DNA of 26,375 nt from positions 1 through 26,375 of the IMG/VR virus record IMGVR_UViG_3300042691_039013. One strand, 5' to 3'. Shown here piece after piece: positions 8,905-11,522 of this stretch; within the stretch, counting starts at the first letter, position 1; every line of letters starts with the position of its first letter. The DNA is from a virus. The notes below the pieces were generated by a model. That model had not been told where the DNA came from. It ran no database searches and saw only the letters and a program-made list of their open reading frames with translations. Position numbers and translations under genes: made by a program.

Positions 8905-9969
8905 TTAATCTATTTTTCTGAACGGTTTGGAATATTCGGGGTAAATTAATTTCCAAATTATTGGTTTGTAGTTTTTACGATCAAACATTGCAAAAAGTAT
9001 AGACGAATGTTTGTATTTGGTTGCATGATAAGCAAAAAGTTTTCTATCACAACAATTCGGAACTCTCAATATTATTTTATAAATCCACTTATATTCATCA
9101 TTTAATTTATTGAATTCCTTCTCCAAATTATTTTTTGTTTGTTTAACCCAATCGTAAAATTCATCCGGAACTTTTTCAAGTATCTCATCCATTGGTTTTC
9201 CATCTTTCAGATATTCCCAAATGTCTCGGTTAGAGATATTGGTTAAGATCCTGTGTAAACGAACATATTCACTCCCCTTGATCTTCATTCTTAATCCGGA
9301 TTCAAATCTTATAACAAACCCCTCTTCATTATCTTTAATGATATTTTTAAGGGTTGTATAATCTTGTATTCCATCATATTTTTTGACAAACTTGAATCCA
9401 AGGTTTCTATACATATTCACGAACCGGATGCCTTCCAAGTGAATCTTTTCATCAAATATTCTGTATTCATATCCATCCGCATTGTCAATCACTCCAAGCA
9501 TTATCAGGTCTTCATAATCATAATCAACAACGATTCTATTCTCTTTGTAGATTATTTCAAAAAGATAAGTTTTATCCTCAATTAATCTTTTGTAGTCATA
9601 CTTCTGAAGAATTTCCCACCCTTTTTTTGCTTGATCGGATGTAAATGATCCACGAGTTGCCAAAACCCATTCTCCTTTGTAGTTAAATAAAATCCCCAAT
9701 GATCCATCCAACTTTTCGAATACGTCAAATCTTTCATTGGGAATTTGTTCGGGTTCAATTTCCTCATAGTTGAAAAATTTTCTGAAAGGTCTGGCAACCA
9801 CGTTACCCTCATCATCTGTGACAAGACCACGAGCTTGCAAGGTCACCTCATCCCACAACTTTTCATATTGAACTTTTGGAGAATAATTCCAAATTGTCAA
9901 TGGAAGGGTTGGGTGATGTTGCTTTTGCAAAAGACCTTCAGAATAATATTTTTCAAGAATTTGGTTCAT
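8905..9969 (-). CDS. T4 Rnl1-family RNA ligase
   Basis: 354 residues. The nucleotidyl-transferase motifs appear in order: QARGLV and RPFRKFFNYEE upstream; motif I EKLDGSLG with Lys86 as the expected AMP acceptor (T4 Rnl1 has KEDGS); motif Ia RGSFTS; motif III YLFEIIY; motif IV EGFVIRF; motif V MKIKGSEYVRLH. T4 Rnl1 is 374 residues, so this is full length. Rnl1 enzymes seal 5'-phosphate and 3'-hydroxyl ends and repair host-cleaved tRNA anticodon loops during infection. The gene begins a minus-strand group with phosphoesterase and cREC genes and lies next to the tRNA arrays. Its 5' end overlaps the upstream gene's 3' end by 17 bases. Confidence 0.93.
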   Translation of the reverse strand: MNQILEKYYSEGLLQKQHHPTLPLTIWNYSPKVQYEKLWDEVTLQARGLVTDDEGNVVARPFRKFFNYEEIEPEQIPNERFDVFEKLDGSLGILFNYKGEWVLATRGSFTSDQAKKGWEILQKYDYKRLIEDKTYLFEIIYKENRIVVDYDYEDLIMLGVIDNADGYEYRIFDEKIHLEGIRFVNMYRNLGFKFVKKYDGIQDYTTLKNIIKDNEEGFVIRFESGLRMKIKGSEYVRLHRILTNISNRDIWEYLKDGKPMDEILEKVPDEFYDWVKQTKNNLEKEFNKLNDEYKWIYKIILRVPNCCDRKLFAYHATKYKHSSILFAMFDRKNYKPIIWKLIYPEYSKPFRKID

Positions 9970-10147
9970 TTAATTTTTCCTTACGATCAAAAAATTCACA
10001 AGTGTGTGTTCTACTCGGGATAACTTCCGGGACCTTACCTTTTTTGGGGTTGGAACATCTTAATCCTTGTCCAACACCGATTAACCAAGCGATGTGTTTG
10101 CAGTTATAACAAACTTTCTCATCGGGGGAGATGTTAAAATTACTCAT
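9953..10147 (-). CDS. Small Cys4 putative zinc-binding protein
   Basis: 64 residues with four cysteines at 13, 16, 31 and 50 (CYNC, LRCSNP, THTCEFF), spaced as in a small zinc ribbon. It overlaps the RNA ligase gene downstream by 17 bases and the gene upstream by four (ATGA type), which indicates one operon with tight translational coupling. Function unknown; a nucleic acid-binding role in the RNA-repair group is conceivable. Confidence 0.7.
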   Translation of the reverse strand: MSNFNISPDEKVCYNCKHIAWLIGVGQGLRCSNPKKGKVPEVIPSRTHTCEFFDRKEKLNEPNS

Positions 10148-10419
10148 GGTGCTTCATTTAATGATTTACAATATACTAATACTTCCGAAATTTGATCATC
10201 TTGTTTGAATTTATATACGCCTTCCAAATCACCCTCAAATTCAGAATATTCAATTTTATTATACCCCAAAAGTTCACCGGGGTTGGTATAATCTTTTGTT
10301 TCAGAAATTCCAAAATAATCTTTCACATAAGTTTCAAGATCTTTTCTCTCTGATTGAACGGTCAAAATATCTGTTGATCCGTCATAATCTTTCAACATCG
10401 CCACATATACAAGTGCCAT
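10144..10419 (-). CDS. Hypothetical small protein
   Basis: 91 residues, start MALVYVAML. Predicted alpha/beta with DYDGSTDILTVQSERKDLE and a Tyr/Phe/Asp-rich remainder; no motif recognised. It is coupled by a four-base ATGA overlap to the Cys4 gene. A TATCTTCG box at about 10450-10457 on the minus strand may be its promoter. Confidence 0.65.
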   Translation of the reverse strand: MALVYVAMLKDYDGSTDILTVQSERKDLETYVKDYFGISETKDYTNPGELLGYNKIEYSEFEGDLEGVYKFKQDDQISEVLVYCKSLNEAP

Positions 10420-10465
10420 AATTTTAAGTTTTAATTGTTAATAAAACACGAAGATACGGAATAAA

Positions 10466-11113
10466 TTATAAACTACCAATTAATCTTTCCACATGGTGAT
10501 CCTTGGGCATTTCTGACAGATTTTCCCGGTCTTTGAGTAATTTGATACACTCTTTGATATTATATGGTCTGAATTCCGGGCTACCATCCATTCCCACGTC
10601 CATTCTACGACCATTTCCGAACCTCATATGAGTTGGGAGGTGACAGTGTCCGTGTAAGTGCATATAACCCTTATTTAATCCATCCCAGCTAGAAATGGGG
10701 TAGTGCATAAGTTGGAAGTAATAACCGTCATATTGTAGTGTATTATACACAGACACACTTTTGAATAAACCCTGAACACCATCCCTATTTCTTTCAATGT
10801 GGTGGTCGTGATTACCCAAGATAAGGTGAATGTTTTTACACACCAATCTGTCCCAAAACTCACGAATATATTCAAATCCTCCAAATGACCAATCACCCAA
10901 GTGAATCAACACATCATCCTGACCTACGAATTCATTGATGTTATTGATAATAGTAGAATTCATATGATTCAAATCACGGAAATCTCTGGTCTGACTCACC
11001 GGAATCTCTCCATCTGTAGTTCTCCAATTAGTTGTTGAACGACAGATATTTTTGTGATTGTAGTGAGTATCAGATGTGATCCAAACGTTTATATCTTTAT
11101 CAATTTTTATCAT
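10466..11113 (-). CDS. Calcineurin-like metallophosphoesterase
   Basis: 215 residues with the full set of metal-binding motifs: WITSDTHYNHKNI (Asp15, His17), HLGDWSFGG (GD), LILGNHDHH (GNHD), MHYPIS and HLHGHCHLP (GHxH). This family hydrolyses phosphomono- or diesters, including 2',3'-cyclic phosphates of RNA and cyclic nucleotides. The gene overlaps the upstream cREC gene by 14 bases and lies with the RNA ligase, so a role in trimming RNA ends before ligation is reasonable. Substrate cannot be read from the sequence; similar phage proteins are often annotated only as phosphoesterases. Confidence 0.9.
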   Translation of the reverse strand: MIKIDKDINVWITSDTHYNHKNICRSTTNWRTTDGEIPVSQTRDFRDLNHMNSTIINNINEFVGQDDVLIHLGDWSFGGFEYIREFWDRLVCKNIHLILGNHDHHIERNRDGVQGLFKSVSVYNTLQYDGYYFQLMHYPISSWDGLNKGYMHLHGHCHLPTHMRFGNGRRMDVGMDGSPEFRPYNIKECIKLLKDRENLSEMPKDHHVERLIGSL

Positions 11114-11522
11114 AACTTTTCTTAAAGTTTTCTAGGTAATTAATAATATTTTCTCTTCCAATTGGGTTTGCGGAGTGAACATAATATTTTGGTAGTTCCA
11201 ATTTATTGTCAATACAATAATCAACCAACCATTTTGCACAGTCCTTACCGGTTTTTTCTTCAAATCTTCCTTTATCCGGATCGGGGGGATTATCGTGACC
11301 ACCATTATCAAAATAATATTTGATATGTTCAATACCCAAATCGTGATCAAAAGAAATCAAACCGGGTAGTCCATTTTCTGTGATATGTTTGACGAACTCA
11401 TCATGAGATCTAACAACAACCCAATCAGGTTGATCATAAATGTCTTTGAATTGTTCAACATAATTCACCCGGGACGCCATTTTTGGGGTCCGAATATCGT
11501 CTAAAAATAATTTATATCCCAT
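11100..11522 (-). CDS. Cyclic-phosphate-processing receiver-like (cREC) protein
   Basis: 140 residues. LFLDDIRTP (residues 5-13), VVRSHDEFVKHI, GLISFDHDLG (about 56-65) and YYVHSANPIGRENI give the signature of the receiver-derived domain named cREC (cyclic-phosphate-processing receiver), recognised by its LDDxR and SFDHDLG motifs. The family was linked by comparative genomics to RNA end repair, where it is thought to handle 2',3'-cyclic phosphates left by ribonucleases. Here it is directly coupled to a phosphoesterase and close to an Rnl1 ligase, the expected partners. The activity is inferred from family literature and context. Confidence 0.8.
   Translation of the reverse strand: MGYKLFLDDIRTPKMASRVNYVEQFKDIYDQPDWVVVRSHDEFVKHITENGLPGLISFDHDLGIEHIKYYFDNGGHDNPPDPDKGRFEEKTGKDCAKWLVDYCIDNKLELPKYYVHSANPIGRENIINYLENFKKSYDKN

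Follow-up and report, generated by a model that had tools for sequence, protein, structure and literature searches.

What does a phage do with a group of genes for RNA ends set beside a large array of tRNA genes? Such a group lies in IMG/VR virus record IMGVR_UViG_3300042691_039013, which was analysed whole (26,375 bases, here called the window). An earlier note on this DNA had proposed a three-gene RNA end-repair cassette with overlapping ends, and all three genes are where it placed them, on the minus strand and with intact reading frames: an Rnl1-type RNA ligase (8905..9969, 354 amino acids), a calcineurin-like metallophosphoesterase (MPE; 10466..11113, 215 amino acids) and a cREC protein (11100..11522, 140 amino acids). 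The family of each was confirmed. We think it probable, while leaving real room for doubt, that the cassette heals and seals damaged RNA and so would act in counter-defence; its most likely targets are tRNAs whose anticodon loop has been cleaved by defence nucleases of the host. The ligase is the predicted sealing enzyme, MPE is predicted to heal 3' ends and cREC is predicted to open cyclic phosphates.

The arrangement of the locus differs in part from that first described. In the direction of transcription the minus strand carries 18 tRNAs, orf153, cREC, MPE, orf91, orf64 and the ligase. The cREC and MPE genes do overlap, by 14 nucleotides (nt; 11100-11113), but MPE makes no contact with the ligase. 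A gap of 46 nt separates it from orf91 (10144..10419, minus strand, 91 amino acids), which overlaps orf64 (9953..10147, minus strand, 64 amino acids, cysteine-containing) by 4 nt, and orf64 overlaps the start of the ligase by 17 nt; orf91 and orf64 are open reading frame calls. On the other side, orf153 (11540..12001, minus strand) lies upstream of cREC with 17 nt between them, and another 44 nt separate it from the first tRNA. The ligase, MPE and cREC are therefore present as claimed, but as members of a tight six-gene run in which the two frames between MPE and the ligase, and orf153 between cREC and the tRNAs, had been missed. The large tRNA array that the note saw alongside is there, with 18 tRNAs at 12046..17124 on the same strand as the cassette (ARAGORN; Rfam RF00005).

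The ligase matches PF09511 (E 4.1e-18, 66.5 bits against a cut-off of 28.3) and phrog_562 (E 2.5e-68), and the only solved structures similar to it in sequence are T4 RNA ligase 1 entries (2c5u, E 2.5e-9). Residues R47, K64, K86, D88, G89, E138, E216, G217, K229 and K231 are identical in 52 of 52 ligases, T4 RnlA included, and align with the T4 active-site motifs (the motif I lysine and motifs III-V). A domain above its curated cut-off and the retention of these motif residues place the protein in the Rnl1 type (RNA_lig_T4_1). As a separate observation, three clusters of related loci have the ligase split into two matching frames about 0.9-1.0 kilobases (kb) apart, as if by an insertion (L029 8058-10202, L037 8790-10856 and L038 11142-13129).

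Calcineurin-like phosphoesterases bind metal through the motifs D-x-H, GD, GNH, H and GHxH. MPE has this pattern, with D15, H17, D74, N101, H102, H137, H156 and H158 invariant among 29 sequences, and it matches PF00149 (E 1.5e-8, above the cut-off) and phrog_547 (E 5.3e-43); its predicted structure has a predicted local distance difference test score (pLDDT) of 87.4. Its assignment as the 3'-end healing enzyme is predicted from gene context. The cREC protein is placed in its family by a match to PF20274 (E 1.1e-23, 84.1 bits against a cut-off of 27), a receiver fold and conserved acidic residues. The fold was assigned from a model with pLDDT 86.7 (best Z 9.5, root-mean-square deviation (rmsd) 2.6, 90 residues aligned) by a second structure comparison and not by plain Foldseek, which returned nothing with E below 0.001 for the model (best E 8.5e-3); a sequence comparison with solved structures gave no meaningful match. 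Residues D8, D9, D59, H60, D61, T91, G92, H116, N119 and G122 do not vary in either of two alignments, one of 26 and one of 32 sequences. In receivers the acidic pocket residues follow strands 1 and 3, as D8, D9 and D59 do in the cREC model, where S117 follows strand 4. With four strands, the model lacks the end of strand 5, where receivers usually have their lysine, and none of the lysines is conserved throughout the 26 sequences. The family was named, and its operonic association with RNA ligases described, in passages of PMC7824862 from the same group as Iyer et al. 2022, in part of which (PMC9503650) cREC is given as experimentally uncharacterised as of 2022.

The case for a joint function begins with gene linkage. 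Loci were fetched from each of the three proteins with 10-kb flanks (the best 80 of 164 for MPE, 79 distinct of 89 for the ligase, and 17 of 17 for cREC), and the 178 loci, including two small loci of the window itself, were merged with the window by DNA similarity into 77 clusters, so that the counts describe a sample near the query and not a census. Ligase and cREC occur together in 32 of the 77 clusters, on one strand in 30; their frames overlap or lie at most 100 nt apart in 15, although gaps were measured on stop-to-stop frames, which overstates overlaps. Ligase and MPE share 28 clusters (27 on one strand, 19 within 2 kb), and MPE and cREC share 17 (16 on one strand). By locus, with a copy of this phage among those counted, the 80 MPE loci hold both ligase and cREC in 35 cases, ligase alone in 25, cREC alone in 8 and neither in 12; the 79 ligase loci hold cREC alone in 38, cREC and MPE in 7, MPE alone in 5 and neither in 29; and the 17 cREC loci hold ligase and MPE in 5, ligase in 1 and neither in 11. 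Recurrence on the same strand over dereplicated clusters rules out chance neighbours.

The earlier note had made conservation of the genes and their order a check on its proposal. This came out in its favour, with order and strand kept in many viral contigs. The order does vary between clusters, and on the ligase tree (52 rows, from clusters whose ligase frame reaches at least 320 amino acids) the presence of a nearby cREC changes at least 17 times and that of a nearby MPE 6 times, so the linkage is not the simple inheritance of a single order.

The third commonest gene family near the anchor genes is a small P-loop kinase of 130-140 residues, here KIN, which in 39 of the 77 clusters lies no more than 6 kb from an anchor. 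It matches AAA_33 (E 1.5e-12), phrog_2071 (E 6.1e-41), phrog_505, named 'polynucleotide kinase' (E 1.2e-9), and, weakly, TIGR04075; when solved structures were searched with a profile built from 25 KIN sequences, T4 polynucleotide kinase came up (E 3.6e-4 and 5e-4). The 737 positions of phrog_8238 match KIN at 1-123 (E 6.8e-4), MPE weakly at 198-253 (E 0.039) and the ligase at 430-730, a succession that hints at a fusion of the three. The rows nearest to the window ligase on the tree, L083 and L085, come from clusters in which KIN adjoins the ligase and cREC overlaps the ligase at its 3' end, and its nearest isolated relatives are in Streptomyces phages, where in Wakanda a gene annotated as polynucleotide kinase lies 1.6 kb downstream. 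KIN is present in 25 of the 39 ligase-anchored clusters, 21 of which also have cREC and/or MPE; 7 have a T4-type kinase-HAD protein (1 with cREC, none with MPE) and 7 have neither kinase. The cluster-by-cluster listing of gene arrangements includes the weak 'PNKP' matches of L011 and L177, which were left out of the tree and of the tRNA-array counts. Related ligases thus pair either with a T4-type kinase-HAD phosphatase or with a single-domain kinase plus MPE and/or cREC, which bears out the proposal of healing by enzymes other than those of T4.

Genome-wide searches covered 29 viral records, large ones preferred, that we had chosen through these same genes, and the p values for KIN, MPE and cREC are for this reason a guide only. 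KIN was found in 19 records (E at most 7.4e-30), MPE in 15 (E at most 2.2e-92), cREC in 24 and HAD_PNKP above its cut-off in 3. Over 20 clusters, 9 have KIN and MPE, 2 KIN only, 1 MPE only and 8 neither (p=0.0055), so that KIN accompanies 9 of 10 MPE clusters. The sole cluster with MPE only is the phage's own contig, which is incomplete: a viral sequence of 72,361 bases from the same phage (99.99% identity to the window over 12,407 nt) that extends past the left end of the window. The two clusters with KIN only have no strong MPE; in one a HAD_PNKP phosphatase gene adjoins KIN, and the other has a weaker MPE. Eight records have ligase, cREC and MPE with no KIN in the fetched locus; 6 of them encode KIN elsewhere on the contig, and the two that do not are this phage's contig and that of L040. 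We infer that this phage encodes a kinase outside its sequenced part, and the 5'-healing partner of the cassette would then be a gene absent both from the earlier note and from the window. In a lineage without strong MPE, KIN was also seen beside a free-standing HAD_PNKP phosphatase gene, as though T4 Pnkp had been divided between two genes (G009 58510-59352 and G028 206807-207649).

Bacterial Pnkp holds a kinase, a calcineurin-type phosphatase and a ligase in one chain and works with Hen1. KIN, MPE and the ligase correspond to these three domains, and their likely job is therefore the healing and sealing of cleaved tRNA. The cut would leave a 2',3'-cyclic phosphate and a 5'-OH, as is established for such nucleases. 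The cyclic phosphate would be opened by cREC and/or MPE, and MPE would strip the remaining phosphate to give a 3'-OH. The 5'-OH is predicted to be phosphorylated by KIN, known from the relatives and absent from the sequenced part of this phage, and the ends would be sealed by the Rnl1-type ligase, whose catalytic residues are complete. Overall the domains that Pnkp joins in one chain would be split over three genes, with cREC as an accessory, and placed beside a tRNA array such a cassette would keep host and phage tRNAs usable.

Several observations weigh against this reading. Searches of the window and of the 72-kb contig that overlaps it, which together leave the genome incomplete, turned up neither KIN nor HAD_PNKP; given the absence of HAD_PNKP from both, a T4-type Pnkp was rejected for this phage. 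Judged by sequence, the ligase is of Rnl1 type but not T4 RnlA proper, because no T4-type C-terminal domain (PF20819, T4_Rnl1_C) was detected in it at E up to 1, where T4 RnlA itself gives E 1.8e-39, and because its 69 bits against the NCBI T4 RnlA equivalog TIGR02308 fall far under the cut-off of 242.25. Homology does not give the substrate of MPE: the closest solved fold to its model is Aquifex aq_1665 (1xm7; Z 16.8, rmsd 2.7, 165 residues aligned), a protein of unknown function, the next closest are lipid enzymes of the LpxH type (Z 12.8), and the family is common across phages, with members in 1079 of 50,697 records. An apparent mutual exclusion between PNKP and KIN with MPE/cREC was set aside, since its p=0.0014 by plain count comes down on the ligase tree to two changes and two independent pairs. 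KIN and cREC, finally, are not associated genome-wide (p=0.62 by cluster), and on this ground cREC was rejected as the healing partner of KIN. The earlier note's pairing of MPE plus cREC as the healing enzymes is accordingly not singled out by the data, because MPE tracks KIN across genomes and cREC does not.

That last result also fits an alternative which we hold to be possible but unlikely, namely that cREC, and perhaps MPE, destroys cyclic nucleotide or cyclic ADP-ribose alarm signals and that the ligase lies next to it because counter-defence genes cluster. The authors who described cREC proposed cyclic ADP-ribose or 2'-3' cyclic nucleotides as its substrates, in a passage of PMC7824862; cREC stands among NAD genes with no ligase nearby in several isolated proteobacterial phages, which counts against the repair reading as well, and it occurs alone in 10 of the 77 clusters. 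Set against this, the cREC and ligase frames overlap or nearly touch in 15 of the 32 clusters that have both. Models for SIR2, Macro and KptA each matched 0 of the 29 viral records (the 72-kb contig included, the records being partly fragments), and a route through any of them was rejected. Sirtuin and Macro were both detected in the control RaK2, but the Macro negative has limits because its model missed the annotated Macro gene of phi17:2, so absence of Macro is unproven. With no match to the three models among these records, an ADP-ribose route is less likely here and a direct role of cREC on RNA ends more likely.

The neighbouring tRNAs raise the question of whether the cassette splices or matures interrupted tRNAs of the phage itself, as the earlier note had suggested; we judge this very improbable. 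Tight packing on one strand with the tRNA array speaks for it, as do tRNA introns reported in Lak phages in part of PMC6784885 and three tRNA genes of the window (15661-15754, 23741-23839 and 24036-24149, minus strand) in which a long extended hairpin takes the place of the anticodon arm. These insertions, however, fold as extensions of the anticodon stem, and the tRNA splicing endonuclease PF01974 was found in none of 31 records (30 from IMG/VR including the window, this phage's genome being incomplete, and T4), a negative that covers the archaeal/eukaryotic type; in control genomes the model was positive in 4 of 14, all archaea. A TGACTAT-type relative of the tRNA gene at 15661-15754 was seen in L112 at 18802-18902. 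The window also has five tRNA-like elements with AGTCAGG ... CCTGACT ends (15040-15149, 20371-20474, 20534-20644, 22718-22806 and 23069-23144, minus strand), which share a T-arm and mostly a Leu-like D-arm around unrelated middles. Four of the five have a 3' end of 23 bases that was found again in at least 120 viral contigs. Among the matches listed, 139 of 165 copies have AGTCAGG 5' ends, in elements of 53-159 nt, and 31 of those 139 are called ordinary tRNAs; the elements look like members of a tRNA-ended RNA family that is widespread and variable in its core. A ligase lies in the fetched stretch at 2 of 120 such loci (at least 120 being known; there was no control set). Neither the proposed service to intron-like tRNAs nor a link between these elements and the cassette found support. 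We give hardly any credence to a related idea, in which the form that has cREC, MPE and ligase on the strand of the tRNA array and its kinase elsewhere also takes part in making the phage's own tRNAs: it would join the halves of tRNAs that are interrupted or cut on purpose, and cREC would be a new metal-independent opener of cyclic ends acting through its invariant Asp/His. It is very unlikely, too, that the ligase serves mainly in virion assembly, like T4 RnlA in tail-fibre attachment, and that the phosphoesterases have unrelated metabolic tasks. The name of the ligase's PHROG family covers both roles, as does the annotation of T4 RnlA, but the ligase is repeatedly linked to a kinase and MPE, its adenylation motifs are invariant and the T4 C-terminal domain was not detected in it.

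The repair reading can be placed among known systems. KIN relatives occur in 613 of 50,697 phage records, and 10 KIN regions from isolated phages, 4 top-ranked and 6 spread across the ranking, were examined; an RNA ligase lies within 5 kb of KIN in 9 (recognised in 8 by profile and in 1 by annotation), MPE in 9 and cREC in 3. Vequintavirus Murica has the order sirtuin, cREC, ligase, KIN, MPE, and Mydovirus NDO71 the order MPE, ligase, cREC, KIN, sirtuin. This is the neighbourhood already published for V5 and Mydo phages, given by Iyer et al. 2022, in a section of PMC9503650, as sirtuin-ligase-cREC-kinase-MazG-(calcineurin); calcineurin-like 3' phosphatases are noted for some jumbo phages in part of PMC7824862. 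The V5/Mydo cassettes likewise bring together a T4-like ligase, cREC, a small kinase and a calcineurin-like phosphoesterase, but the form studied here has a tRNA array alongside, its kinase is not local and no sirtuin was detected. At least three tRNAs lie in the fetched stretch of 14 of the 77 clusters, namely 6 of 7 clusters with ligase, cREC and MPE but no local KIN, against 8 of 70 others (p=8e-5, in a test chosen after the data had been seen). Compared with the open-access literature, the cassette is a new variant form of the published V5/Mydo kind that comes with no detectable sirtuin, KptA or Macro genes.

In T4, PseT (Pnkp) and RnlA (Rnl1) repair tRNA-Lys cut by PrrC, and the likeness lies in an Rnl1-type ligase with invariant adenylation motifs and in the need for 5' and 3' healing before sealing. 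T4, however, has its kinase and HAD phosphatase in one protein (AAA_33 and HAD_PNKP), whereas here there are MPE and cREC and any kinase is separate and elsewhere; RnlA also has the T4_Rnl1_C domain that escapes detection in the window ligase. The bacterial Pnkp shares the same three predicted activities and a 3'-healing enzyme of calcineurin type, but here the genes are separate, the ligase is of a different family and cREC is added. Lak megaphages resemble this phage in their many tRNAs, some of them interrupted, but neither here nor in the passages of PMC6784885 on those tRNAs was any connection seen between interrupted tRNAs and a ligase cassette.

Other features of the locus can be given briefly. 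Among the fetched viral loci, homologues of orf64 and orf91 occur solely in copies of the same phage, and the only PHROG match of orf91 is phrog_730 (E 0.039); orf153 matches phrog_3754 (E 1.9e-22) and recurs in 17 loci, counting the window and this phage's copies; in several it is directly upstream of cREC. The tRNA array is interrupted by an RNase H-like gene and by an HNH/homing-type endonuclease gene (13404-14249, minus strand; phrog_559, E 7.3e-32). A phage tmRNA lies at 5920-6322 on the plus strand (Rfam RF00023, 85 bits), and a gene like GDP-mannose 4,6-dehydratase (17770-18744, minus strand; PF16363, E 8.7e-118) stands amid small phage genes. The rest of the 72-kb contig, read in three pieces, holds no second copy of the cassette genes, and PADLOC gave weak matches only on the window proteins. 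The host of this tailed phage is probably a member of the Bacteroidota, since the closest isolated relatives of MPE are from Flavobacterium and Cellulophaga phages.

These findings suggest that in many phages, among them cultivable phages of E. coli, Pseudomonas and Vibrio, the three activities of bacterial Pnkp are divided among separate genes, so that the roles of phrog_547, a very common phage phosphoesterase family, of the phrog_2071 'ATPase' and of cREC could be tested together. Because this form of the cassette has no detectable sirtuin, it is useful for telling apart the two roles proposed for cREC, one on RNA ends and the other on ADP-ribose signals.

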